This document shows, piece by piece, positions 1,940 to 40,697 of a stretch of DNA of 41,148 nt. The position numbers were made by a program, and so were the translations under genes. The stretch's first letter is position 1. Each line of letters opens with the position of its first letter. The stretch lies in NCBI GenBank assembly GCA_025350145.1, contig JANXYH010000070.1, forward strand, positions 1 to 41,148, given 5' to 3'. The notes below the pieces were generated by a model. It saw nothing but the letters and a program-made list of their open reading frames with translations, ran no database searches and was not told the origin of the DNA. This DNA is from Burkholderiales bacterium. Its GTDB lineage: Bacteria > Pseudomonadota > Gammaproteobacteria > Burkholderiales > Burkholderiaceae_C.

Positions 1940-2629
1940 ATGAAGACTGCTCTCACCCTGTTGCTGGCGATGGCCGGCGCATGTTCGGCCAGTTGGGCCG
2001 AGGACATCAAAGGCGACGCGGCACAAGGCGCGGGCAAGGCGGCGATGTGCATAGGCTGCCACGGCATCGTCGGCTACCAGGCCAGCTTTCCCGAGGTCTA
2101 CAAGGTGCCCAAGATCGCCGGCCAGGGCAGCAAGTACATCGCCTCGGCGCTGAACGCCTACGCCAAGGGCGACCGCAAGCACCCGACCATGCGCAGCATC
2201 GCCGGCTCCCTGAGCGAGCAAGACGTGGCCGACCTGTCGGCCTACTACGAGCAGCAGGGCAAGTCCGCCGCTGGCGAGGTGGCACCGGCGACGCTGGCCA
2301 TGCCGGTCCCCGACGTGCTGAAGGACCGCATGGCAGCCTGCGTGGCCTGCCACGGTGCCAACTTCTCGACCCCGCCGGACCCGAGCTTCCCGCGCCTGGC
2401 GGGCCAGCATGCCGACTACCTCTACGCCGCCTTGCGGGCCTACGAGACCGACGGCAACCCGCATGTCGGGCGCGCCAACGCCACCATGCGCGGGCAGTTG
2501 CTGCAAGAGGGCGACGCCAAGGCCAAGAAGAAGCTCAATTTCAGCAATGCCGAACTCAAGCAGGTGGCCAGCTACCTCAGCGAACTGCCTGGTGAGCTGA
2601 GGGTGGTGCCGCAATCGCGCTTTCGCTGA
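1940..2629 (+). CDS. dihaem cytochrome c, c4-like, periplasmic
   Basis: This 229-residue protein has a cleavable signal peptide ([20 protein letters not shown], cut near residue 20) and two class I haem-attachment motifs: CIGCH at 37-41 and CVACH near 134-138. The two halves each carry downstream methionines that could be axial ligands ('HPTMRSIAG' and 'NATMRGQL'), as in cytochrome c4. Such proteins shuttle electrons in the periplasm, for example from the bc1 complex to terminal oxidases. It is transcribed away from moxR and ends before a strong terminator, so it looks monocistronic. The cysteine at residue 15 lies in the signal sequence; a lipoprotein is less likely because there is no clear lipobox. 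Confidence 0.9.
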
Positions 2630-2669: not shown

Positions 2670-2697
2670 CGCCGCTGTACACCAGCGGCGTTTTTTT
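2670..2697 (+). terminator. rho-independent terminator after cytochrome c
   Basis: An 8-bp perfect stem (CGCCGCTG / CAGCGGCG) with a 5-base loop is followed by seven T residues. It ends the cytochrome c transcript and insulates the promoter-like site that starts 12 bp further on. Confidence 0.9.
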
Positions 2698-2708
2698 GCC
2701 TGACGAAC

Positions 2709-2736
2709 TCAAGCCTGTGGTGGCGGGCGCCGATAT
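2709..2736 (+). promoter_or_regulatory. sigma-28 (FliA)-like promoter of the HD-GYP gene
   Basis: TCAAGCCT at 2709-2716 and GCCGATAT at 2729-2736 are separated by 12 bp. The same arrangement is found before the first flagellin (8500-8527) and fliD (10939-10966), with a close variant before fliS. It resembles the FliA consensus (TAAA, 15-16 bp, GCCGATAA). The ATG of the HD-GYP gene starts only 12 bases after the end of the -10 box, so the 5' leader would be just a few bases and no Shine-Dalgarno sequence is visible. The mRNA may be almost leaderless. Confidence 0.65.
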
Positions 2737-2747
2737 CGTCGGACACC

Positions 2748-4064
2748 ATGGCCGCGCGTGACCCCCAGCTCAAGAAGGTTCCGGTCGGCGATGTTCGCCT
2801 GGGCATGCACATCCACGCGCTTGAGGGTCCGTGGCTGGATCACCCGTTCTGGAAGACCCGTTTTGTGCTCACCGATACGGCCGATCTGGACAAATTGCGG
2901 CGCAGCCGCGTGACCGGTTGCTGGATCGATCTGGCGCGCGGGCTGGACGTGGCCGGCAGGTTTGTCGATGGCGGCAACTGCGGCGCCGCCAGCGGCTTGG
3001 CTGGGCCCGCTGTCAGCAGCAGCCAGGACACGGTCCATTCGCATTTGCAGCCGCTGCTGCCCAGGGCAGAGTCGCCAGCCGCAGCCGCAGCCGCTGCAGC
3101 GCCCAGGGTGTCGATGCGGGAGGAATTGCTGCAGGCCGCAGTGCTGTGCAATCAGGGCCGCGAGGCGGTGATTGAGATGTTTTCCCAGGCCCGCCTGGGC
3201 AAGGCGCTGGAGGCCGAGCGCTGCATGCCGCTGGTCAATGAGATCACACGCTCGGTCTACCGCAACCCGGGCGCGCTGGTCAGCCTGGCGCGGCTCAAGA
3301 CTGCCGACGACTACACCTACATGCACTCGGTGGCGGTCTGCGCCTTGATGGTTGCGCTGGGCCAGCAGATGGGCCTGGACGACGCCGAATGCCGCGACGC
3401 CGGCCTGGCCGGACTGCTGCACGACATGGGCAAGGCCGCGCTGCCGCTGGAGCTGTTGAACAAGCCCGGCAAGCTGACCGACGCCGAGTTCGCCATCGTC
3501 CGTACCCACCCGCAACGCGGCCACGAGATGCTGACCCAGGCCAAGGGCGTGAGCCAGCAGGTGCTGGACGTGGTGCTGCACCACCATGAGCGGATCGACG
3601 GCAAGGGCTATCCGGCTGGCCTGTCCGACGCCGCTCTGGCGCGCCACGTGCGCATGGCTGCGGTCTGCGATGTCTACGATGCGATCACCTCCAACCGGCC
3701 CTACAAGGCGGGCTGGGACCCGGCCGAATCGGTGGCCCGGATGGCCTCCTGGAAGGGCCACTTCTGCCCGGCGGTGTTCCGCGACTTCGTGCGCAGCGTG
3801 GGCATCTACCCGACCGGATCGCTGGTGCGGCTGGCGTCCGCGCGGCTGGCGGTGGTGCTGGAGCAAAATCCAGGTGCGCTGACCGCGCCCATCGTCAAGG
3901 TTTTTTACTCCATCAAGACCGGGCTGCCGATCTCGGCCCAGGTGCTGGACCTGTCGCGCCAGGGCGTTGACCGCATCGTCGACCGCGAGCCGCCCGGAAA
4001 TTGGAACTTTCCGCAGCTCGACAGCCTGTGGGCCGGCGACGCCGTGCCGCGCAAGCGCAGCTGA
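2748..4064 (+). CDS. HD-GYP domain protein (DUF3391 + HD-GYP), probable c-di-GMP phosphodiesterase
   Basis: The N-terminal ~110 residues are a DUF3391-type region ('[34 protein letters not shown]'), common in front of HD-GYP domains. An alanine-rich linker (about 105-120) follows, then a complete HD-GYP domain. The metal and catalytic signatures are intact: HDMGK at 225-229, and HHE at 278-280 followed by RIDGKGYP, the GYP motif. HD-GYP proteins hydrolyse c-di-GMP to pGpG or GMP in the cytoplasm. No membrane segment is visible. A sigma-28-like promoter directly in front suggests expression with late flagellar genes, where lowering c-di-GMP would favour swimming. The start is the first ATG after that promoter; it lacks an obvious ribosome binding site. 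Enzymatic activity is inferred from intact motifs. Confidence 0.88.
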
Positions 4065-6761: not shown

Positions 6762-8342
6762 ATGACCGATCTGCTGACCCGCGCGCTGATCCTGCTGGCG
6801 GCGCTGTGCCTGGGGCCATCAGCCCTGGCCCAGACCTTGCGCTGGGCCAGCCAGGGCGACCCGCAGACCATGGACCCGCACTCGCAGAACGAGTCCCTGA
6901 CCAACATGATGAACGGTCAGGTCTACGAGCGCCTGACGATGCGCGACCGCAAGCTCAACATCGTGCCCAGTCTGGCCCTGAGCTGGCAGCAGCTCAGCCC
7001 CTTGGTCTGGCGCTACAAGCTGCGCCCAGGTGTCAAGTTCCATGAGGGCCAGCCGTTCACGGCCGACGACGTGGTCTTTTCGATCAAGCGCGGCCAGGAG
7101 CCGAACTCGCAGATCAACAATTACGCCCTGGCCGTGGGCGAGCCGGTCAAGATCGACGAGTTGACGGTGGAGTTCAGGCTCAAGGCCGTCAACCCGATCT
7201 TTACCGAGCACCTGGACGGCCTGTGGATCATGAGCAAGTCCTGGTCCGAGGAGCACAAGGTCACCAGGCCGCTGGACTTCAAGGCCAAGGAGGAGACCTG
7301 GGCGGCAATGCACAGCAACGGCACCGGCCCCTACCTGCTGGCCAGCCGCCAGCCCGGCATCAAGACCAGCTACAAGCGCAACCCCAACTGGTGGGGCAAG
7401 TTCGAGGGCAATGTCCAGGACGTTGTCTTCACCCCGATAGGCAACGACGCGACCCGGCTGGCGGCGCTGGTCTCGGGCGAGATCGACTTCGTGCTCGACC
7501 CCGCGCCGCGTGACGTGCCGCGGCTGCGCAACACCGCTGGCGTCAAGGTGGTCGACGGGCCGGAGAACCGCATCGTCTTCATCGGCATGGACCAAAGCCG
7601 CGACGAACTGCTGTACAGCAGCGTCAAGGGCAAGAACCCGTTCAAGGACATCCGGGTGCGGCGCGCGCTCTACCAGGCGATCGACATAGAGACGCTGAAG
7701 ACCAAGCTGATGAACGGCCTGTCGGCCCCGACCGGGGCGATGACGCCGTCGCCGCTGGCCTACAACGGCGATCCCGAGTTCGACAAGCGCCTGCCCTACG
7801 ACGTCGCTGCGGCGCGCAGGCTGATGGCCGAGGCCGGCTATGCCGATGGCTTCGAGGTGACCATCGATTGCCCCAACAACCGCTACATCAACGACGAGGA
7901 AATCTGCGTCGCGCTGGCCTCGATGTGGGCCCAGCTCAAGGTCAAGCTCAAGGTCAACGCGATGCCGCGGGTGACCTATTTCCCGCGCCTGGAAAAGCAG
8001 GACACCAGCCTGTACATGCTCGGCTGGGGCGGTGCGGTCACCGACGCCGAGACCACGCTGACGCCGGTGATGCGCAACCGCGCCGACAAGGGCGTGGGCT
8101 TCTACAACTACGGCGCCAGCCGCAACGACAAGTTCGACGCCCTGGCCGCAGCCAGCAGCAACGAGGCCGACCCGAGGAAGCGCGAGGCGCTGATCAAGGC
8201 GGCGCTGCGCGAGTGGCAGGAGCAGGTCCACACCATCCCGCTGCACCGCCAGGTGATTCCCTGGGCGTCGCGGGCCAACGTCAGTGTCGTGCACCGTGCG
8301 GACAACTGGTTGGAAGTGGCCTGGGTGAACGTAGGCCGATAA
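6762..8342 (+). CDS. ABC transporter substrate-binding protein, family 5 (peptide/nickel type)
   Basis: The 526-residue protein has a signal peptide (to about residue 24, 'LGPSALAQ') and the SBP_bac_5 fold signatures. These are 'LRWASQGDPQTMDPHSQNE' at the mature N-terminus, 'LSPLVWRYKLRPGVKFHEGQPFTADDVVFSIKR', and the late 'ADNWLEVAWVNVG'. Such lipid-free periplasmic proteins deliver peptides, nickel, haem precursors or similar ligands to an ABC permease. No permease or ATPase genes are adjacent: copZ lies before it and flagellin after. It may therefore be an orphan binding protein that uses a permease coded elsewhere. A longer frame starting with TTG at 6732 exists, but the ATG at 6762 places the signal peptide correctly. 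Ligand unknown. Confidence 0.88.
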   Translation: MTDLLTRALILLAALCLGPSALAQTLRWASQGDPQTMDPHSQNESLTNMMNGQVYERLTMRDRKLNIVPSLALSWQQLSPLVWRYKLRPGVKFHEGQPFTADDVVFSIKRGQEPNSQINNYALAVGEPVKIDELTVEFRLKAVNPIFTEHLDGLWIMSKSWSEEHKVTRPLDFKAKEETWAAMHSNGTGPYLLASRQPGIKTSYKRNPNWWGKFEGNVQDVVFTPIGNDATRLAALVSGEIDFVLDPAPRDVPRLRNTAGVKVVDGPENRIVFIGMDQSRDELLYSSVKGKNPFKDIRVRRALYQAIDIETLKTKLMNGLSAPTGAMTPSPLAYNGDPEFDKRLPYDVAAARRLMAEAGYADGFEVTIDCPNNRYINDEEICVALASMWAQLKVKLKVNAMPRVTYFPRLEKQDTSLYMLGWGGAVTDAETTLTPVMRNRADKGVGFYNYGASRNDKFDALAAASSNEADPRKREALIKAALREWQEQVHTIPLHRQVIPWASRANVSVVHRADNWLEVAWVNVGR

Positions 8343-8752
8343 ACGGCTCGAAAAATCGGCCGGATGGGCGCCTTCTCGGCGCCGGCTTGAGGGTCTGGCC
8401 GGCGCTGGCTGCGTTTTGCCCCGGATTTGCGTGACCGAGTGCACGGCAGCGGCGGCCCTGGCCGGTTGACAGCTCAAGAAAGAGTTTGCGAATCCCCCCT
8501 CAAGTCGCCCGAGAGCGTGGCCGATACCCAACCAACGGACGGTTCCTGAGCCCCCGTGGTCCGGTTAGCCGGCCAATGGCACACGGCCAGAGTGATGGCC
8601 TTGAGCAGCATGGGCGACTGGTGCGGACGTGTCCAGTCTGGTGTTGAGCCAGGCTGGACGAGCGAGGGAAGTTGGTCGGGCGCAAGCCTGATCGGCGACC
8701 CGAACGACGTCGGCGCTTTCTGCCGGGATTTTTTCAACCCAAGGAGTTCATC
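8343..8752. other. 410-bp intergenic region before the first flagellin
   Basis: I see no convincing gene here. It holds a GC-only hairpin at 8367-8383 (GGCGCC, 5-base loop, GGCGCC) that lacks a T tract, and the sigma-28-like promoter at 8500-8527. The flagellin leader from that promoter would be about 220 nt, which is long. A strong Shine-Dalgarno AAGGAG at 8741-8746 lies 6 bases before the GTG start. Confidence 0.6.
8500..8527 (+). promoter_or_regulatory. sigma-28 (FliA)-like promoter of the first flagellin
   Basis: TCAAGTCG at 8500-8507 and GCCGATAC at 8520-8527 are 12 bp apart, the same layout as before fliD and the HD-GYP gene. Flagellin genes are classic FliA targets. Start of transcription is expected near 8534, leaving a long untranslated leader to 8753. 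Confidence 0.65.
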
Positions 8753-9616
8753 GTGCCTCTGACCATCAACACCAACCTCTCCTCGCTGAATGCGCAGCAC
8801 AACTTGACCATGTCGCAATCGGCCTTGTCAACCTCGATGCAGCGCCTGTCCTCAGGCCTGCGCGTCAACTCGGCCAAGGACGACGCCGCTGGCCTGGCCA
8901 TCGCCTCCCGCATGGACGCCCAGGTCCGTGGCATGACGGTGGCGGTGCGCAATGCCAACGACGGCATCTCGCTGTCGCAGACCGCTGAAGGCGCGCTGGG
9001 CAAGATCAGCGACTCGCTGCAGCGCATGCGTGAATTGGCCGTGCAGTCGGCCAACGCCACCAACAGCAGCAGCGACAAGGATTCGCTGGACAAGGAGTTC
9101 GGTGAACTGGCCAAGGAAATCCAGCGTGTCGCCGGCGGCACCACCTTCAACGGTCTGCACATCCTGGGCAGCAACGCCGGTGCGCAATCGTTCCAGGTTG
9201 GGGCCGGAACCACCAGCAACGACAACGTCGACATCACCACCACCGACATGACCACCGACAGCACCATCACGGCCGTGGCCGGTACCGACAACACCGGGGC
9301 CGGCCGGGCGCTGATCGACAACACCGCCACCGCAGCGGCGATCCACACCGTGATCGACAACCTCGACACGTCGATCAACACGGTCAACACCCAGCGTTCG
9401 GCAATGGGTGCCTCGCAGTCGCGCTTTGACTCGGTGATCGGCAACCTGAACACCTCGGTCCAGAACCAGACCGCCGCGCGCAGCCGCATCATGGACGCCG
9501 ACTTCGCGGCCGAGACCGCCAACCTCAGCCGCGCCAACATCCTGCAGCAGGCCGGAAACGCGATGATTGCCCAAGCCAACCAGTTGCCGCAGCAAGTGCT
9601 GCAGTTGCTTCGATGA
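8753..9616 (+). CDS. fliC: flagellin (copy 1)
   Basis: The 287-residue protein is a short flagellin with the conserved D0/D1 N-terminus ('[11 protein letters not shown]', '[23 protein letters not shown]') and C-terminus ('[28 protein letters not shown]', ending QVLQLLR). The central variable part is small (about residues 155-215, rich in T, D and N), so outer D2/D3 domains are largely absent. It is exported by the flagellar type III apparatus and polymerises into the filament. The start is a GTG at 8753: it directly follows AAGGAG and gives the standard VPLTINTN beginning. An in-frame upstream ATG would add a non-flagellin leader. It is followed by a terminator and a second flagellin gene of very similar sequence. 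Confidence 0.95.
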
Positions 9617-9961
9617 CCATGCGCTCGCCGCGCTAGCGGGTGGCTCGGCCGAAGCCGGCGGACCCAGCGCGCGCGGCCCGCCGGCGGAATCTGCCATTGC
9701 CCGCTAAAAACGCCCTCGATCTTCCGGATCGAGGGCGTTTTCGCGTGCGCGACGGGTCTGAACGGGCGCACTCCTGGGGCCCAACATCGCCGCAATCAGC
9801 ACTGCAAACGGTGTGCATTTCGGTGCTTCGGGTCGAAGCGGATTGCTCAGAATCGCTTTCATGCCGGCCCCTTTGCAGGGTTGGCGTGGACCGGAACCAC
9901 TGCCGCCAGGTTTGGCCAGGCAAGTACGCCGGGAGTCTTCGATTCTTGAGGGGTGCTCTCC
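9617..9961. other. 345-bp gap between the two flagellin genes
   Basis: The gap contains the strong terminator at 9707-9741 and the leader of the second flagellin. Unlike the other late flagellar genes in this window, I could not find a TCAAG / CCGATA pair here. The second flagellin may use a different promoter, a degenerate one, or read-through past the terminator. I see no coding sequence. Confidence 0.55.
9707..9741 (+). terminator. bidirectional-looking terminator after flagellin 1
   Basis: A perfect 15-bp stem, AAAACGCCCTCGATC with GATCGAGGGCGTTTT, closes a 5-base loop (TTCCG). The A-run before and T-run after would let it work in both directions. It separates the two flagellin genes. 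Confidence 0.92.
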
Positions 9962-10828
9962 ATGCCGCAGACGATCAATACCAACCTGGCTTCGCTGAAC
10001 GCACAGCGAAACCTCAGCATGTCGCAGTCATCGCTGTCGACAGCGATGCAACGCCTTTCCTCGGGCCTGCGGGTCAATTCGGCCAAGGACGACGCCGCCG
10101 GCCTGGCCATCGCCGAGCGCATGAATGCCCAGGTTCGCGGCATGAATGTGGCGGTGCGCAATGCCAACGACGGCATCTCGCTGGCGCAGACCGCAGAAGG
10201 CGGCCTGGGCAAGGTCACCGACGCGCTGCAGCGCATGCGAGAGCTGGCGGTGCAGTCGGCCAACGCCACCAACAGCAACAGCGACAAGGATTCGCTGGAC
10301 AAGGAGTTCGGCGAACTGGCCAAGGAGGTGCAGCGGGTGCTGGGCGGCACGACCTTCAACGGCAAGGCCATCCTCGGCACCAACGCCGGGGTGCAGACCT
10401 TCCAGATCGGCGCCAACACCACGACCAACGACACCATCGACGTGACCACGGTCGATCTGACCGTCGACGCCACCGTCACCGCCGTGGCCGGCACCGACAA
10501 CACCGGCGCAGGCCGGGCAGTGATCGACAACACCGCCACGGTGGCCGCGATCCACACCGTGATCGACAACATCGATGCGGCCCTGAACACCGCCAACGCC
10601 CAGCGCGCGACCATGGGTGCGTCGCAATCGCGCTTCGACGCGGTGATCACGAACCTGCATACCTCGGTCGAAAACCAGACCGCCGCACGCAGCCGGATCA
10701 TGGACGCCGACTTCGCCGCCGAGACCGCCAACTTGAGCCGCGCCAACATCCTGCAGCAGGCTGGCAACGCGATGGTGGCGCAGGCCAACCAATTGCCGCA
10801 ACAGGTGCTGCGATTGCTGCAGAACTGA
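9962..10828 (+). CDS. fliC: flagellin (copy 2)
   Basis: The 288-residue product is a near twin of the upstream flagellin. It has the same conserved ends ('[43 protein letters not shown]' and '[28 protein letters not shown]'), and the short variable region shares the block [14 protein letters not shown](L/V)IDNTAT. Long stretches are identical at DNA level too, which points to tandem duplication and perhaps gene conversion. The ATG at 9962 (MPQTINTN) is preceded by GAGGGG. The in-frame ATG three codons earlier would spoil the normal start. Bacteria with two flagellins often place them in different filament zones or express them at different times; which applies here is unknown. Confidence 0.94.
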
Positions 10829-10860
10829 CGCGCCGCAGCCGGCGCGCCCGACGCCAGCCC

Positions 10861-10903
10861 CCAGGCCGCGACCGCCCGATCGGGTGGCGCGGCCTTGGTT
10901 TTT
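10861..10903 (+). terminator. terminator after flagellin 2
   Basis: A long imperfect stem runs from CCAGGCCGCG to CGCGGCCTTGG around a GCCCGATCGGGT core and is followed by five T residues (10899-10903). Confidence 0.8.
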
Positions 10904-10938
10904 GCCGGCGCCGGCATGGTGCGGCAGATCGGCGGTAC

Positions 10939-10966
10939 TCAAGCCAACGCCACTGGCCGCCGATAT
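10939..10966 (+). promoter_or_regulatory. sigma-28 (FliA)-like promoter of fliD
   Basis: TCAAGCCA at 10939-10946 and GCCGATAT at 10959-10966 are separated by 12 bp, matching the site before the first flagellin and the HD-GYP gene. The fliD ATG is 27 bases after the -10 box. Confidence 0.65.
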
Positions 10967-10992: not shown

Positions 10993-12465
10993 ATGGCCAC
11001 CAGTTCCATCTCCAACGTCGGCAGCATCAGCTCGGCAGGCCTGGGCAGCGGCCTGGACGTCAATTCCATCGTCAGCCAGTTGATGGCGGTGGAGAGCCGG
11101 CCGCTGACCCTGCTGCAGACCCAGGCCGGCTCGCTGCAGTCCAAGTTGTCCACCTTCGGCAGTCTGCAAAGCCAGTTCGCGACCCTGCGCGACAAGTCCA
11201 ACGCGCTGCTTGCACCCAGCCTGTGGAGCGCGACCACCGCCACCTCGGACGACGCCTCGGCGGTCAAGGTGGCGACCGCCAGCAATGCCCAGGTCGGGGC
11301 CTACACCATCAGCGTCGCTGCCCTGGCCAGCACCCAGACCTTGACTTCGTCGGCACTGGGTGGATCGTCGGCCACGCTCAATCCGGGCAGCCTGACGATA
11401 GCGCTGGGCAGTTGGAGCGCCGGCCCGCCGCCGGGTTTCACCGCCAAGAGCGGTGCCAGTGCGGTGACGGTGGACATCGCCAGTGGCGCGACCAGCCTGG
11501 CCAGCATCCGCGACAAGATCAACGCGGCCGGCGCGGGCGTCACCGCCACCATCATCAGCGACGCCAGCGGGGCGCGGCTGTCACTGCGCTCGCAGGCCAG
11601 CGGTGCGGAGAACGGCTTTCGCGTCAGCGTCAGCGAGACCAGCGACGACGGCGTCGCCGGCAGCGGCCTGTCGATGCTGGCCTACGACCCGTCCAACCCT
11701 GTGGCTGGCAGCTCCAACCTGGCCTTGAGCCAGGCTGCGGGCAACGCCAGCGCAACCATCAACGGCATCCCGGTCAGCTCGGCCAGCAACACCCTGAGCA
11801 ACGTCGTCGACGGCCTGACCCTGAGCCTGCTCAAGACCACCGCCAGCGCGGTCAACCTCACGGTCGCGACCGACAACGCGGCGATCCAGAAGTCGATCAC
11901 TGACTTTGTCGTCGCGTTCAACAGTCTGGCCGGCTACATCCACACCCAGACCGCCTACGACGCCGGCAGCAAGACCGGCGGCCTGCTGCAGGGCGACCAG
12001 TCGACGATCGCGCTGCAAAACCGGCTGCGCGGCGTCATCAACCAGTCCAGCAGCGCCAGTTCGAGCTGGTCCACCCTGTCGGGCATCGGCATCACGATGC
12101 AGGCCGATGGCAGCCTGGTCACGGACAGCACCAAGCTCGGCAATGCCGTGGGCCAGCTTGACGAGCTCAAGAAGCTGCTCTTCACCAACGGTGCGGACAG
12201 CGCCAGCTCGGGCTTCGTGCGGCGCTTTCAGCAACTCGCCGACACCGCCCTGTCGTCCGGCGGCGTGTTCGACAGCCGGACCGCCGGCCTGCATGCCAGC
12301 CTGCTGCTCAACAGCAAGTCGCAGGACGCGATGCAGAACCGGCTGGATGCGACACAGGCCCGTCTGCGCGCGCAGTACAGCGCGCTGGACACAAAGATGA
12401 GCCAGCTCAACGGCCTGAGCGCCTACATCACCCAGCAATTGGCGGTCAACAACAGGACCGCCTGA
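10993..12465 (+). CDS. fliD: flagellar hook-associated protein 2 (filament cap)
   Basis: The 490-residue protein is FliD, the pentameric cap that folds flagellin subunits at the filament tip. The N-terminus 'SISSAGLGSGLDVNSIVSQLMAVESRPLTLLQTQ' is diagnostic. The middle holds the usual S/T/A/N-rich sheet domains, and the C-terminus ('QNRLDATQARLRAQYSALDTKMSQLNGLSAYITQQL') is the heptad-type helix of FliD_C. It follows the two flagellins, has its own sigma-28-like promoter and precedes fliS, the standard late-class order. The length is normal for the family. Confidence 0.95.
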   Translation: MATSSISNVGSISSAGLGSGLDVNSIVSQLMAVESRPLTLLQTQAGSLQSKLSTFGSLQSQFATLRDKSNALLAPSLWSATTATSDDASAVKVATASNAQVGAYTISVAALASTQTLTSSALGGSSATLNPGSLTIALGSWSAGPPPGFTAKSGASAVTVDIASGATSLASIRDKINAAGAGVTATIISDASGARLSLRSQASGAENGFRVSVSETSDDGVAGSGLSMLAYDPSNPVAGSSNLALSQAAGNASATINGIPVSSASNTLSNVVDGLTLSLLKTTASAVNLTVATDNAAIQKSITDFVVAFNSLAGYIHTQTAYDAGSKTGGLLQGDQSTIALQNRLRGVINQSSSASSSWSTLSGIGITMQADGSLVTDSTKLGNAVGQLDELKKLLFTNGADSASSGFVRRFQQLADTALSSGGVFDSRTAGLHASLLLNSKSQDAMQNRLDATQARLRAQYSALDTKMSQLNGLSAYITQQLAVNNRTA

Positions 12466-12775
12466 TCCGGGCTGCGCCGCCCGGCGCGGCAGCGCTGCTG
12501 GGCGGGCGGACCAGCGCACGCGCGCTGCATTTCGGCTGGCGTCGTGGCAACCATGACCCGCTGTTGCGGCAGGCTTTCGCGACGCACAGCCGGCAAATTC
12601 ATGCCACGCCTGCGCCGCAGTTGCAGTTCCGCCCTCCGGGGCTTTGGGCAGGCTCAAGTGCCCAGGTCGTTGACCGATATCCCAAACACACCCGCCGCAG
12701 CCCGCTGGCCCGACGTCAGGCCAAGGCGCTGTCAGCCCCAGCCACCCGCGAGATACCCACCCGCCACGCCCGAAC
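12466..12775. other. 310-bp gap between fliD and fliS
   Basis: No convincing reading frame is present. Behind fliD there is a GC-rich imperfect hairpin without a T tract, and the sigma-28-like site for fliS lies at 12654-12680. The leader from that promoter to the fliS ATG would be about 90 nt. Confidence 0.5.
12654..12680 (+). promoter_or_regulatory. sigma-28 (FliA)-like promoter of fliS
   Basis: TCAAGTGC at 12654-12661 and ACCGATAT at 12673-12680 are 11 bp apart, one base less than at the other three sites and with A in place of the first G of the -10 box. It is a slightly weaker match. Confidence 0.5.
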
Positions 12776-13216
12776 ATGTTCAATGCGCCCTACGCTCCCT
12801 CTGCCACGCGCAGTCAGCAGTTTGCCGGGTCCTATCACCAGTTCGGCAACCTCGGCAAGGTCGCGCAGGCATCGCCGCATGGGCTGGTGGCGCTGTTGTT
12901 CGAGGGCTACTTCGCGGCCTTGAATCGGGCTCGCGGGGCGATGCGTGCCGGCGAGATCGGCGCCAAGGGCTCGGCCATCGGCCACGCCGTGCGGATCGTC
13001 GACGAGGGTCTGCGTGCGGCCTTGAACCTCAGCCAGGGCGGCAACCTGGCGGCCGATCTGGACGATCTCTACGCCTACGTCTGCCTGCGCATGACACAGG
13101 CCAACCTGCAGAACGACGAGGCCGCGCTGGACGAGTGCATGCGCCTGATGACGCCGCTGCGCGAGGCCTGGGCGGGCATCGCGGGCAGTGCCGACCATGC
13201 CGGCCGGCGCAACTGA
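12776..13216 (+). CDS. fliS: flagellin export chaperone FliS
   Basis: The 146-residue protein matches FliS, the cytoplasmic chaperone that binds the flagellin C-terminus and stops premature polymerisation. Family hallmarks are the N-terminal Y-x-x-V/F segment ('AGSYHQFGNLGKVAQASPHGLVALLFEGYFAALNRARGAM'), the 'GSAIGHAVRIVDEGLRAALNLSQGGNLAADLDDLYAYVCLRM' helices and the 'ANLQNDEAALDECMRLMTPLREAW' end. It lies between fliD and fliT and is probably transcribed from its own late promoter together with fliT and ycgR. Confidence 0.93.
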   Translation: MFNAPYAPSATRSQQFAGSYHQFGNLGKVAQASPHGLVALLFEGYFAALNRARGAMRAGEIGAKGSAIGHAVRIVDEGLRAALNLSQGGNLAADLDDLYAYVCLRMTQANLQNDEAALDECMRLMTPLREAWAGIAGSADHAGRRN

Positions 13217-13300: not shown

Positions 13301-13600
13301 ATGAGCAAACTGCTGAACTATTACGAAGCCATCGAGAAGGCCAGCGCCGACATGCTCTGCGCCGCCCGCGACGGCAACTGGGACCATGTGATCAAGCTCG
13401 AAGGCGCTTGCGTGCTGCTGATCAGCCAGCTCAAGAATGCCGCCCGCAACACCGCCCTGAGCAGCGAGGAGAGCCAGCTCAAGTCGCGCATCATGCGCCG
13501 CGTGCTGGTCAACGACGCCGAGATCCGCCACCTGGCCGAACCCTGGCTGGAGGACCTCGACGAGATGATCCACCAGTCCCAGCGCAAGACGCTGCACTGA
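13301..13600 (+). CDS. fliT: FliT-like flagellar chaperone
   Basis: This 99-residue, mostly helical protein begins 'SKLLNYYEAIEKASADMLCAARDGNWDHVIKLEGAC', the usual FliT pattern of a first helix with a W at the end of the repeat. FliT chaperones the cap protein FliD and, in enterics, also modulates FlhDC. Position after fliS and before ycgR supports the call; sequence alone is only moderately diagnostic for this short family. The start is preceded by AGAGG. It lies 84 bp after fliS and 7 bp before the PilZ gene. Confidence 0.8.
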   Translation: MSKLLNYYEAIEKASADMLCAARDGNWDHVIKLEGACVLLISQLKNAARNTALSSEESQLKSRIMRRVLVNDAEIRHLAEPWLEDLDEMIHQSQRKTLH

Positions 13601-13607
13601 GCCCGCC

Positions 13608-14405
13608 GTGGTCGACCCCCAGCCAACAGACGCGGCGCCGGCAGACGCGGGCCGCAACGACGCTGCCGAGGCATCGCTGGCGCCCTACGCCATCGAGCAG
13701 CCGGCCGAACTGCTGGGCTGCCTGCGCCGGCTGCTGGCGGCCAACGCCGTGCTCAGCCTGACTGCGCCCGGCGGCACGGCGTTGTCCACCCAACTCTGTT
13801 CGGTCGACGAAGTGCATGGCCGGATCGGCTTCGACGCGGCGGGTCTGGGTGCGGTGCTGCCCGAGCTGGCCGAGCGCAACGAGGTCACGGTGGTGGCTTA
13901 CCTGGACGAGGTCAGGCTGCAGTTCGAACTGCACGATCTGTTGATCGTCCACGGCGCGCGTACTTCGGCCCTGCAGGCCGGCCTGCCGCAGCGCATTTAC
14001 CGCTTCCAGCGCCGCAATGCTTTTCGGGTGCGGGCGCAGGGCCGGATCGCACCGATGGCCGAGTTTCGCCACCCCGCCATGCCCGAGATGCGGATCGCGC
14101 TGCGGGTGCTGGACATCAGCATTGGCGGCTGTGCCCTGCTGCTGCCGGCCGACGTGCCCGCCCTGGCGCCCGGTGTGGCGATCGCCGGTGCGCGGCTGCG
14201 CCTGGACGCCGAGACCCGGCTGGACGTGACGCTGCAGGTGCACCACGTCACCTCGATCCAGCCCGGGCCGCCGGGCACCCGGCTGGGTTGTTCGCTGGTC
14301 GGGCTGGCCCCGTCAGCCAGCCGCACCTTGCAGTGCCACATCGACCAGATCCAGAGGCGCCAGCGCCTGGTGGTCTCGGCCGCGCGAACCGAAGGCGCGG
14401 CGTGA
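13608..14405 (+). CDS. ycgR: YcgR-type PilZ protein (c-di-GMP flagellar brake)
   Basis: The 265-residue protein has an N-terminal YcgR/PilZN-like domain (about residues 25-125) and a C-terminal PilZ domain. The PilZ c-di-GMP signature is present: RRNAFR (about 137-142, the RxxxR arm) and DISIGG (about 167-172, the D/NxSxxG turn). YcgR proteins bind c-di-GMP and slow or bias the flagellar motor. The start is a GTG at 13608, 7 bp after fliT; the stop overlaps the next gene's GTG start in a GTGA junction. Placement in the late flagellar operon supports a motility role. Confidence 0.88.
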   Translation: MVDPQPTDAAPADAGRNDAAEASLAPYAIEQPAELLGCLRRLLAANAVLSLTAPGGTALSTQLCSVDEVHGRIGFDAAGLGAVLPELAERNEVTVVAYLDEVRLQFELHDLLIVHGARTSALQAGLPQRIYRFQRRNAFRVRAQGRIAPMAEFRHPAMPEMRIALRVLDISIGGCALLLPADVPALAPGVAIAGARLRLDAETRLDVTLQVHHVTSIQPGPPGTRLGCSLVGLAPSASRTLQCHIDQIQRRQRLVVSAARTEGAA

Positions 14406-31901: not shown

Positions 31902-33005
31902 TCAGTGGGCGTCGACCGGGTAGGTCCCGAGGACCTTGAAGAACGCGCAGTTCTGGCGCAATGCCGCCAGCGCGGTGCCGACCTTGGCCTCGTCGGGGTG
32001 GCCGACGATGTCGAGGTAGAAGTAGTACTCCCATTGGCCCGACCGTGCCGGGCGCGACTCGAACCGGCTCATCGACACGCCATGCTCCTTCAGCGGCATC
32101 AGCATGTCGTGGACCGCGCCTGGCCGGTTGGGAACCGACAACACCAGGCTGGTGCAGTCATGGCCCGAGGGCTTGGGTGCCGGATGGCGATCAGGATGCG
32201 TGACGATCGCAAACCGGGTCCGGTTGTGGGCGTCATCCTGGATCGCCGGGGCCAGCACATGCAGGCCAAATTCACTGGCCGCACGGTCGCTGGCGATCGC
32301 CCCCAGGCCAGCATCCAGGGACGCCAGCCGCGCACCTTCGGCGTTGCTGGCGACTGGGCGGCGCTCGACCTCGGGCAGGTGCTGGCTGAGCCAACCGTGG
32401 CATTGGGCCAAGGCCTGCGGATGGGCGCAGATCGCCCGCATCGGCTCGGCCGCAAGCGTCTTGCGCAGCAGGTGGTGGCGAACGACCAGGCTGGTCTCGC
32501 CGATGATGAACAAGGGCGTGGTCAGGAACAGGTCGAGCGAGCGTGTCACCACGCCCTCGCTCGAGTTCTCCACCGGTACCACGCCAAAGTCGGCGGCACC
32601 GGCGGTGGTGGTGCGAAACACCTCGTCAAAACTGGCACACGGCACGCGCACCACCGAGCTGCCGAAAAACCCCAGCGCAGCTTCTTCGCTGAAGGTGCCT
32701 GCCGGACCGAGATAGGCCACCCGGGTCGGGGTTTCCAGCGCCCGGCAGGCCGACATGATCTCGCGCCAGATCGGCGCCACGCTGTCGGTCTTGAGCGGCC
32801 CCGGATTGACCGCCTTCAGGCCGTCGATCACCTGAGCCTCGCGCTCCGGCCGGAAAGCGACCGAGCCCTCGCGCTTCTTGAGCTCGCCCACCTCCAGAGC
32901 CAGGTTGGCACGCTGGTTCAGCAGGCGCAGCAACTCGCGGTCGAGTGCGTCTATCTGCACCCGCAGCGACTGCAATCCGGACGCTGCGGCGGTCGGCTCA
33001 GGCAT
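31902..33005 (-). CDS. pheA: bifunctional chorismate mutase / prephenate dehydratase (P-protein)
   Basis: The 367-residue P-protein converts chorismate to prephenate and then phenylpyruvate. An AroQ-type chorismate mutase domain (about 12-95, 'LRVQIDALDRELLRLLNQRANLALEVGELK') is followed by a prephenate dehydratase domain ('AYLGPAGTFSEEAALGFFG', ..., 'NSSEGVVTRSLDLFL'). A C-terminal ACT domain with the Phe-sensing 'ESRP' motif ('MSRFESRPARSGQWEYYFYLDIVGH') completes it. I place the start at ATG 33005; the longer frame would begin with TTG. In many Burkholderiales serC lies directly before pheA, but here a DUF2059 gene and gyrA occupy that place. Confidence 0.95.
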   Translation of the reverse strand: MPEPTAAASGLQSLRVQIDALDRELLRLLNQRANLALEVGELKKREGSVAFRPEREAQVIDGLKAVNPGPLKTDSVAPIWREIMSACRALETPTRVAYLGPAGTFSEEAALGFFGSSVVRVPCASFDEVFRTTTAGAADFGVVPVENSSEGVVTRSLDLFLTTPLFIIGETSLVVRHHLLRKTLAAEPMRAICAHPQALAQCHGWLSQHLPEVERRPVASNAEGARLASLDAGLGAIASDRAASEFGLHVLAPAIQDDAHNRTRFAIVTHPDRHPAPKPSGHDCTSLVLSVPNRPGAVHDMLMPLKEHGVSMSRFESRPARSGQWEYYFYLDIVGHPDEAKVGTALAALRQNCAFFKVLGTYPVDAH

Positions 33006-38163: not shown

Positions 38164-38840
38164 CGGGCCAGCCGGTTTCGGCCGATTGCCGCCTGGTGCT
38201 GTTCGACCTGGACGGCACGCTGGTCGACAGCGCACCGGATTTGGCCGGTACCGCCAACGATCTTCGTGCCGCACATGGCCTGCCGCCGCTGCCCTACGAG
38301 GCGCTGCGGCCGATGGTCGGCTCGGGTGCGCGCGGCATGGTGGGCGTGGCATTCGGACTGGGGCCGCAAGACCCTGGCTTTGGACCCCTGCGTGACGCCT
38401 TTCTGGATCGCTACGCCCAGCGCCTGCTGGAAAGCACCCGCGTGTTCGACGCGGTGGCCTGCACATTGGACAGGCTTGACGCTGCCGGCATGCGCTGGGG
38501 CATCGTCACCAACAAGGCCATGCGCTTCACCGCGCCTATCGTCGCCGGGTTGGGCTTGTCGGCCCGCGCCTGCGCCGTGGTCGGTGGTGACTCCACGGCC
38601 ATGTCCAAACCCCATCCCATGCCACTGCTGGAGGCGGCGCGACGGGCAGAGGTCGAGCCGCAGCATTGCGTCTATGTCGGCGACGACCTGCGCGACGTAC
38701 AGGCCGGGCACGCTGCCGGCATGGCAGCGCTGGTCGCCGCCTGGGGCTATCTTGGCCTCGGCGAGCCTATCGAGGCCTGGGGCGCCGACGCAGTCCTGCG
38801 CCATCCCGAACAGCTCTTGGATTGGTTGCATTTGGCTTAA
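38145..38840 (+). CDS. gph: phosphoglycolate phosphatase (HAD family)
   Basis: The 231-residue HAD hydrolase has motif I '[17 protein letters not shown]', motif II 'IVTNKA', and motif III/IV '[35 protein letters not shown]'. It removes phosphate from 2-phosphoglycolate, a by-product of DNA repair and carbon metabolism. A GTG at 38145 is used; it overlaps the ubiG stop, and the GTG two codons later is an alternative. The gene ends 13 bp before ssrA. Confidence 0.93.
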
Positions 38841-38853
38841 ACTCAGCGGTTCT

Positions 38854-39227
38854 GGGGCCGACCTGGCTTCGACGTGGGTTCGGAGTCGGTTCAGGGCATG
38901 CCGAGCACCAGTTCGCTCGTAAATCCACTGGAAACAAAGTAACTGCGAACGACTCTACGTACGCCCTCGCCGCTTAAAACCGGTGAGCCTCGCAACGGTT
39001 GGCCGATGGGCCGGGCCTGAAGCCGCAAGGCCAAGGGCTGCGAGGTAATTCACATTGGCTGGTGCCATGCCGCGTCATTCGGCCTGGGACGAGACCCAAT
39101 TGACTGGTGGACCCGGTAGCGTGCTGCTGCGCGACCGGAGCCGCGAGACACAAATCAGACAGCTACGCATGTAGAACTGGCCGGCAAAGGCTTGCGGACG
39201 GGGGTTCGATTCCCCCCGGCTCCACCA
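38854..39227 (+). ncRNA. ssrA: transfer-messenger RNA (tmRNA)
   Basis: The 374-nt RNA has a tRNA-like end: the 5' GGGGCCG pairs with the 3' CGGCTCC (7 bp, one G-U), followed by the encoded ACCA. The T arm lies near 39196-39216 ('GGGGTTCGATTCCCCC'). The tag frame begins with GCG at 38945 and reads ANDSTYALAA, ending in TAA at 38975-38977. The -LAA end is the usual protease signal. With SmpB it rescues stalled ribosomes. The core pseudoknots were not folded by hand. A terminator follows at 39259-39294. Confidence 0.95.
39200..39227 (+). other. likely integrase attachment site (ssrA 3' end)
   Basis: The last ~28 bases of ssrA (T arm to CCA) are a classic target for tyrosine recombinases, and an integrase gene starts just behind. 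The element preserved a complete tmRNA end. The second copy of the core expected at the other end of the element is outside this window, so the exact att core is unproven. Confidence 0.5.
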
Positions 39228-39258
39228 GATGAAGGTTCGCGGAAGTTCGCGAAAGTCC

Positions 39259-39294
39259 AAAAGGCCCAAGCAAATCAACAGCTTGGGCCTTTTT
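39259..39294 (+). terminator. rho-independent terminator after ssrA
   Basis: A 13-bp perfect stem (AAAAGGCCCAAGC / GCTTGGGCCTTTT) with a 9-base loop ends in T residues, 31 bases beyond the tmRNA CCA. It stands between ssrA and the integrase start. Confidence 0.92.
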
Positions 39295-39309
39295 CTTGGT
39301 CCGCCGAAG

Positions 39310-39400
39310 TGCAGGAACTTTCGCCGGCTTCCGGCCCCGCCATGCAGGAACTTCAGCAGGAACTGCAAAATGCAGGCTCTGCACTCAAAAGGTTCCTGCA
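39310..39400. repeat. four TGCAGGAAC-type short repeats before the integrase
   Basis: TGCAGGAACTT occurs at 39310-39320 and 39343-39353, GCAGGAACT at 39356-39364, and an inverted copy (GTTCCTGCA) at 39392-39400. The last lies inside the integrase start region. Their density in 91 bp between ssrA and the int gene suits arm-type integrase sites, excisionase sites or a repressor operator. This is inference from position and repetition. Confidence 0.55.
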
Positions 39401-40697
39401 TAGCACGCGACCTGATAACCGGCGATTCGGCGATCCGCACCATCAAGCCAGGTGACACGCGCAAGCGGCTGAGCGATGGCGCGGGGCTGTACCTGCGGCT
39501 GTTTGTGAAGGGCGGCGCCCATGGTTGGCGCCTGGACTACACCATCAACGGGGTTCGCAAGAATCTGAGCCTGGGCACCTACCCCGATACCGGCCTGGCG
39601 CTGGCCAGGAAGAAGGCCGACCAAGCGCGGCGCCTGGTGAGCGAGGGCACAGACCCGAGCGACACCCGCAAGGCGGTCAAGGTGCAAGCGCTGCGCCAGC
39701 GAGAAGCCAAGCGCCTGGCGGATGCCGGCTTGCCGCCGGCCAACTCGTTTGAGGCCGTAGCCCGTGAGTGGCTGGGAACGGTGCATGGCGCGAAGGTGAG
39801 CGATGGGCACGCCGAGAGAACACGCATTCGCTTGGAGCAAGGCGTTTTCCCTTGGCTGGGCCGGCAACCGGTCAACGCGATCAAGCCGGCCGAGCTGCTG
39901 TCCTGCCTGCGCCGGATTGAGGCGCGCGGCGCGATAGAAACCGCGCACCGTGTAAAACAGGCATGCGGCCAGGTGTTTCGCTACGCCATCGCCACCGACC
40001 GATGCGAGCGTGACCCGTCGGCCGATCTGCGCGAGGCGCTGACGCCGGTTCAGGCCCGCCACCATGCGGCGATCACCGATCCCAAGCGGGTGGGCGAGCT
40101 GCTGCGGGCCTGCGACGGCTACAGGGGGCACGCTGTCACACGGGCCGCACTGGCCATGGCGCCGCTAGTGTTCCAGCGGCCGGGCGAGCTGCGGCATGCC
40201 GAAAGGGCGGAAATCGACCTGGAAGAGAGCTTGTGGACGATTCCGGGCGACCGCATGAAGCGTAGCAAGCAAGGCAAGGCCACCGGCCCGGCCCACTTGG
40301 TGCCCTTGAGCCGCCAGGCCGTAGCCATCATGACCGAACTGCACCCGCTGACGGGGCATGGCCGCTATGTGTTCCCAAGCCTTCGCACCAAGGATCGGCC
40401 CATGTCGGAAGCGGCGGTGTTGGCTGCGCTGCGGCGCATGGGCTTTCCCAAGGATGAGATGACCGGTCATGGCTGGCGAGCCACGGCCCGCACCATGCTG
40501 GCTGAGCGCCTGGGCGTTGACGTGGCAGTCATTGAAGCGCGCAGTTGGCCCACAGCGTGCCCGACAGCCTGGGGCGGGCCTACAACCGAACCGAGTTCGC
40601 CGAACAGCGGCGCATCATGATGCAGACCTGGGCCGACTACCTGGACAGGCTGCGCAAGGGCGCCGAGGTGGTGCCGCTGCCGCAGCGCCACGGCTGA
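39370..40697 (+). pseudogene. int: P4-type tyrosine recombinase (integrase), frameshifted near the 3' end
   Basis: The product matches P4-type integrases. It has the N-terminal arm-binding domain ('SAIRTIKPGDTRKRLSDGAGLYLRLFVKGGAHGWRLDYTINGVRKNLSLGTYPDTGLALARKKADQARRLV'), a core-binding domain ('SFEAVAREWL'), and a catalytic domain with the first Arg in 'FQRPGELRHAE' and the H-x-x-R box 'GHGWRATARTML'. After 'GVDVAVIEA' at ~40539 the frame is lost within GCGCGC; the expected continuation 'QLAHSVPDSLGRAYNRTEFAEQRRIMMQTWADYLDRL' lies two bases over and ends at the TGA 40695-40697. The unshifted frame stops at 40620 without the catalytic tyrosine of 'RAYNR'. Start is uncertain: ATG 39370 or the ATG at 39229. 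Confidence 0.85.

Follow-up and report, generated by a model that had tools for sequence, protein, structure and literature searches.

The HD-GYP gene and its surroundings

The window, that is, the whole 41,148-nucleotide stretch of DNA analysed here, carries on its plus strand a gene (2748–4064) for a 438-residue protein with an N-terminal DUF3391 domain followed by an HD-GYP domain (Pfam: DUF3391, 103 bits; HD_5, 108 bits). Its Pfam domains, motifs and kin in the PDB (4mcw and 4r8z) mark the product as a predicted c-di-GMP phosphodiesterase. Upstream lies a gene for a two-domain cytochrome c (1940–2629, plus strand; Pfam Cytochrom_C / CBB3), which is followed by an intrinsic terminator (2670–2697, plus strand) consisting of an 8-pair stem (2670–2690) and seven T residues; one terminator was found in this search, compared to 0.2 on average in shuffled sequences. 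Downstream, a P-type ATPase gene (Pfam) and further frames set the HD-GYP gene apart from a flagellar cluster that comprises, all on the plus strand, flagellin 1 (8753–9616; Pfam Flagellin_N/C), fliD (10993–12465; FliD_N/FliD_C), fliS (12776–13216; FliS) and fliT (13301–13600; FliT). Directly after fliT follows a gene for a YcgR-type c-di-GMP flagellar brake (13608–14405, plus strand; PilZN 59.8 bits, PilZ 29.1 bits), in line with the claim of an earlier note on this DNA that a YcgR-type gene belongs to the late flagellar cluster.

A second flagellin-like gene was recognized by eye at 9962–10828 (plus strand); the 340 bases before it hold no FliA-type match with up to two mismatches. The minus-strand frames 6819–8531, 8852–9697 and 9859–10917 gave no Pfam match. 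Near the end of the window, a tmRNA gene (38743–39227, plus strand; ARAGORN) is directly followed by an integrase-like frame (39229–40620, plus strand; by eye), an arrangement that probably reflects an element integrated at the 3' end of the tmRNA gene.

Direct reading of the region in front of the HD-GYP gene gives TCAAGCCT (2709–2716), 12 bases, GCCGATAT (2729–2736) and a further 11 bases up to the ATG at 2748, so that both the motif pair and its distance from the start codon are as the earlier note had described them. The region contains an exact FliA-type TCAAG-N15-GCCGATA (2709–2735), with TCAAG as the -35 box (2709–2713, plus strand) and GCCGATAT as the -10 box (2729–2736, plus strand), both located by motif scan and both kept in relatives; 12 bases separate GCCGATA from the ATG. 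Exact copies of this pattern occur three times in the window and nowhere else in it, all on the plus strand, at 2709, at 8500 in front of flagellin 1 and at 10939 in front of fliD. The latter two, again from the motif scan, share the 27-base layout (8500–8526 and 10939–10965), as had also been claimed. With up to two mismatches, TCAAG-N15-GCCGATA matched 10 times in the 41 kb window, compared to 1.47 matches expected from shuffles, and TCAAG-N14-GCCGATA matched nine times, compared to 1.39 expected. There is no exact N14 copy in the window; N14 matches with one mismatch are a 26-base site with ACCGATA in front of fliS-fliT-ycgR (12654–12679, plus strand; motif scan) and a minus-strand match at 32769–32794. 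The spacing in the window exceeds the classical TAAAGTTT-N11-GCCGATAA, as given in the accessible part of PMC4866697, by one base, which counts against FliA control as the best explanation; both spacing lengths are found in the window's own genome.

As the terminator ends at 2697, 50 bases at most are left for a promoter before the ATG, and the FliA-type site occupies the middle of this gap. A simple consensus scan of 2560–2830 gave no sigma-70 match, and the sequence offers little space for a second promoter nearby. Given the terminator at 2670–2697 (by consensus scan), transcripts running on from the cytochrome gene were rejected as the main source of transcription. We consider it improbable that FliA merely acts on top of a basal promoter, with expression also in non-flagellate cells. 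Homologues without a site (see below) show that the HD-GYP gene can live without one, and BifA of Pseudomonas putida is only partly FliA-controlled, according to excerpts of PMC5300878; the shortness of the gap and the outcome of the sigma-70 scan speak against such dual control.

The HD-GYP protein carries His225-Asp226 and the HHExxDGxGYP motif at residues 279–289. An alignment of 17 sequences shows no variation at these residues, and the predicted catalytic motifs are intact. A glutamate of 4mcw, which we take to be the ligand of a third metal, aligns with position 189, where the window protein has a tyrosine; the metal site may therefore differ. Because this glutamate marks the trinuclear HD-GYP subclass rather than the whole family, Tyr189 places the protein outside the 4mcw-like subclass only. 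Pfam detected no EAL domain; the protein may work like PdeH, yet it is not a member of the PdeH (EAL) family.

HD-GYP proteins can act locally, and the site might be used by FliA while the protein's main job is something other than PdeH-like clearing of c-di-GMP, be it that of a local or degenerate enzyme or another late-flagellar function. Tyr189 and the N-terminal DUF3391 domain, which has no assigned function, would be compatible with such a role. However, the invariance of the HD and HHExxDGxGYP residues argues for catalysis, and FliA-type sites also precede other phosphodiesterase-type genes in relatives (see below); we thus regard a different main function as unlikely.

Conservation of the site in the genus and the family

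Among 21 genomes of the genus searched (E up to 1e-100), 14 contain an orthologue of the HD-GYP gene. The cytochrome gene lies upstream in 14/14 first copies, providing a conserved neighbourhood marker, and 11/14 first copies, window included, bear a perfect site. Sites scoring 10/12 (L200) and 9/12 (L199) align at the same place as the perfect ones, while no FliA site precedes the remaining orthologue, L025. In two genus members the HD-GYP gene is duplicated in tandem (L204/L208 and L206/L209), with the promoter at the first copy only, as expected for operon partners.

In the genus alignment, where the surroundings align poorly, the two boxes are conspicuous, as is the start codon in most rows. 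Eight of the perfect sites have a 15-base spacer, with 34% identity among these spacers; in the remaining three, whose spacer is 14 bases long, identity is 50%. Both values are near the expectation from the very high G+C content by our estimate, while the boxes are identical; since these sites were picked for perfect boxes, the fair count of conservation is 11/14. FliA was found in 17 of the 21 genus genomes, 13 of which also have the HD-GYP orthologue and four of which do not; one genome has the orthologue only and three have neither. Given how many of them are incomplete, no inference is drawn from the co-occurrence counts. No FliA gene was found in two genomes with a perfect site, G159 (94% complete) and G043 (80% complete).

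The family-wide search covered 150 genomes, including the window's own, of which 82 contain a homologue (E up to 1e-60). From 94 places by our count, 89 loci were examined, window included; G033, G140, G118 and G046, together with the second place in G013, lie outside this set, as do loci L054–L133, from a contig scan whose listed matches were mostly distant homologues, and G143 is counted once. Scoring used the 12 positions of the two boxes and covered the 140 bases that precede the conserved LKK codons. A score of at least 11/12 was reached by 12 of the 88 other loci, eight of them perfect. By comparison, of 4004 control tiles taken from these same loci, three reached 11 and none reached 12, and 1 of 1760 shuffles reached 11.

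In a protein tree, the smallest well-supported group containing the window comprises 20 rows (SH-aLRT 97). The site (at least 11/12) is present in 12 of these, window included, as opposed to 1 of the 69 other rows (L174). The clade rows below this score are L025 and seven others, among them L170 with a score of 10. A neighbouring group of 17 rows (support 99) has no site in any row, with the cytochrome gene upstream in 15; an ATACT element, counted by eye, is found in the corresponding region of 15 of the 17. The tree is a quick one with many weak forks, so that the order of the window clade and the neighbouring group stays weak. Missing FliA was rejected as the explanation for a missing site, as a search of 79 genomes of the family found FliA in 76. 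The comparison of upstream regions in Burkholderiales that the earlier note had proposed thus finds the TCAAG/GCCGATA pair at the same place far beyond controls.

That the motif arose by chance and an ordinary promoter drives the HD-GYP gene might be suggested by the single 11/12 matches among the control tiles and by the ATACT element in neighbouring-clade homologues, but is rejected as highly improbable given that no tile matched perfectly, that the genus orthologues keep the site despite diverged spacers, that the site is concentrated in the window clade and that the window has three exact sites.

The distance between the site and the start codon bears on the leader. As the earlier note had observed, no Shine-Dalgarno sequence is seen by eye before the ATG of the HD-GYP gene. 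In seven of the 11 genus sites with perfect boxes, 12–13 bases separate GCCGATA from the start, and in the other four 18–25 bases (start codons chosen by us); the predicted short leader is thus not a start-codon error peculiar to the window's genome. It is mainly a genus trait, because nine of the 10 clade members that bear the site in other genera have 28–47 bases between the two; the tenth, L035, has 9 bases if the start is taken just before LKK. If transcription starts some 7 nt downstream of the -10 box, as it does as a rule, the leader is probably only about 5–6 nt in most genus members.

FliA-type sites elsewhere and possible turnover of the phosphodiesterase gene

The window's own genome encodes one FliA (G000, contig C83, 8465–9130; 276.8 bits against a cut-off of 189.6). 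A looser pattern, TCAA-N15..18-CCGATA, matches 23 times in this genome, compared to four times for the reversed control; some of these matches, inside long frames, have probably arisen by chance. By our reading, seven of the 23 are strict TCAAG-N14/15-GCCGATA sites, preceding the HD-GYP gene, flagellin 1, fliD and four further genes, which code for a type IV pilin-like protein, a ComFB protein, a small lipoprotein-like product and a response regulator. Looser sites precede motA and a gene for a HAMP-containing receptor-like protein.

Upstream of the ComFB-family protein (L002:1501–1837 on contig C12; Pfam PF10719), an exact TCAAG-N14-GCCGATA stands 29 bases from the ATG, and three genus members (L294, L311 and L318, the first by sequence likeness only) encode ComFB-like proteins behind exact sites. 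Cyanobacterial ComFB relatives bind c-di-AMP and c-di-GMP, according to the available portion of PMC12313861. In the small lipoprotein-like frame (L011:1501–1942, contig C109), which has no Pfam match, an exact site lies 7 bases before the ATG; the start was chosen by the look of the signal peptide and by kin, as the frame stays open upstream. Proteins resembling it by eye follow FliA-type sites in L291, L296, L322 and L329, and the frame is possibly a second gene with a very short leader and an unknown member of the FliA regulon. An MSHA-like pilin (by eye) with an N_methyl motif has an exact site 83–88 bases upstream in L006 (contig C57) and L325.

Among 300 genomes searched across the order, 36 have a homologue of the HD-GYP protein (E up to 1e-120) at 37 places; 28 new loci were scored (L219 being the same place as L135), and seven places yielded no locus. 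In a single genus belonging to another family, 6/6 loci (L212–L217) show TCAAG-N14 at the same place before the HD-GYP homologue, with GCCGTAA after it in five and ACCGTAA in L215; a seventh homologue, for which there was no locus, is outside this count. Three genomes of this genus were scanned with a degenerate pattern, and 30 of 48 places became loci. In one genome a GCCGTAA-type site lies 193 bases before a flagellin gene, so that GCCGTAA may be a FliA variant, although the background of the pattern is high (for example, 18 versus 7). In two genomes of the same genus, TCAAG-N14-GCCGATA is found upstream of an EAL gene (L240 and L247).

A further pattern scan included G011 and G007; here, 60 of 83 listed places became loci, three of them without a frame of at least 80 residues. 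Across both scans, matches (forward plus reverse) compared to the reversed control numbered 24 versus 0 in G011, 20 versus 2 in G160 and 25 versus 1 in G152. In G007 (5 versus 2), G030 (9 versus 3), G179 (18 versus 7), G226 (18 versus 3) and G269 (12 versus 4), single sites are weak evidence. In G011, a REC-HD-GYP gene and a second HD-domain gene have exact sites 8 and 43 bases before their respective starts (L278/L288 pair of loci), and possibly replace the siteless DUF3391 HD-GYP gene (L025) of that genome. Taken from a few genomes, these observations point to turnover in which phosphodiesterase gene stands under FliA.

Exact sites were also seen upstream of a CHASE8-HAMP-GGDEF protein (L279) in G007, a diguanylate cyclase that possibly belongs to the FliA regulon, though a weak case given 5 matches versus 2 in the control, and of a DUF1631 protein in two genus members (L286 by Pfam; L307 alike by eye).

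A broader reading, toward which we lean slightly less than against, is that FliA drives a whole c-di-GMP module in this Burkholderiales lineage, in which the phosphodiesterase slot is interchangeable. The slot would be filled by the DUF3391 HD-GYP protein here, by a response-regulator HD-GYP protein in G011 and by an EAL protein in another family of the order, where the HD-GYP gene also has a variant site in front; the same promoter type would serve YcgR, the MSHA-like pilin and ComFB, a protein of the cyclic-dinucleotide receptor type. If so, selection would keep some phosphodiesterase under FliA rather than any particular gene, and hook completion would be tied to c-di-GMP clearance and surface pili.

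A candidate FliA-dependent phosphodiesterase and known systems

Direct control of the HD-GYP gene by FliA is very likely on the sequence evidence; RNA polymerase with FliA (sigma-28) would transcribe the gene from the promoter at 2709–2736. As the promoter was kept in relatives while the surrounding DNA changed, the predicted enzyme is probably switched on at flagellum completion. FliA becomes available once the hook is complete and FlgM is exported, and YcgR acts with c-di-GMP as a brake on the motor, as stated in excerpts of PMC13432727. In the sequence of events we propose, FliA set free at hook completion would cause flagellin, cap, stators and the predicted phosphodiesterase to be made together; the phosphodiesterase would hydrolyse c-di-GMP, the co-regulated YcgR-type brake would be unloaded and the new flagella would turn. 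We consider it likely that the HD-GYP gene is a class-III flagellar gene in this sense, its FliA-made product clearing c-di-GMP and unloading the YcgR-type brake. Points against this reading, besides the spacing, are the clade rows and the neighbouring group that lack the site, the two genomes with a perfect site but no FliA found, Tyr189, and the second flagellin-like gene with no match in front. A PdeH-like role with a YcgR partner would fit the domains and the known pathway. Sequence comparison shows the site, its conservation and the intact catalytic motifs; that FliA drives the gene in living cells, that the enzyme is active and that it affects YcgR and swimming is inferred.

In swimming E. 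coli, c-di-GMP is kept low by a FliA-driven EAL enzyme. We know of no conserved FliA promoter for DUF3391-type HD-GYP phosphodiesterases (PA4108-like), whose Pfam domain order we expect to be the same as in the window protein and its kin, the proteins that the Pfam scan covered; PA4108 and PA4781 are presumably HD-GYP proteins, and the EAL and HD-GYP catalytic folds are unrelated. Small changes for PA4108 (-1.40) and PA4781 (+1.85) are given in the accessible part of PMC4866697. Titles and abstract openings from the HD-GYP, FliA, c-di-GMP and Burkholderiales literature, a partial coverage, mention no FliA promoter before an HD-GYP gene, and the FliA-linked phosphodiesterases found in print, PdeH/YhjH and BifA, are EAL enzymes (PMC5300878 and PMC4866697, in part). 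B. cenocepacia lacks a solitary EAL protein like PdeH, according to excerpts of PMC6335245, which raises the question of how Burkholderiales lower c-di-GMP in swimming cells.

The E. coli FliA targets include yhjH and ycgR, and a ChIP-seq site, TCAAG-N14-GCCGATAA, is reported at flgKL (PMC4183435, in excerpts). The window resembles the PdeH (YhjH)-YcgR system of E. coli and Salmonella in that a phosphodiesterase gene and a gene for a YcgR brake lie behind FliA-type promoters (E. coli sites, PMC4183435). Unlike in E. coli, ycgR follows fliS-fliT in the window, and, while PdeH is a stand-alone EAL domain (PMC6335245, as far as the excerpts go), the window protein combines DUF3391 with HD-GYP. 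BifA of Pseudomonas putida and P. aeruginosa is similar in that expression of a phosphodiesterase is partly FliA-dependent (PMC5300878 and PMC4866697, both in excerpts); it differs in being an EAL enzyme, for which the same excerpts give no canonical site in P. aeruginosa and a moderate effect. For Burkholderiales, placing an HD-GYP enzyme under FliA would be one way to lower c-di-GMP in swimming cells, and one that relies on an unrelated enzyme.
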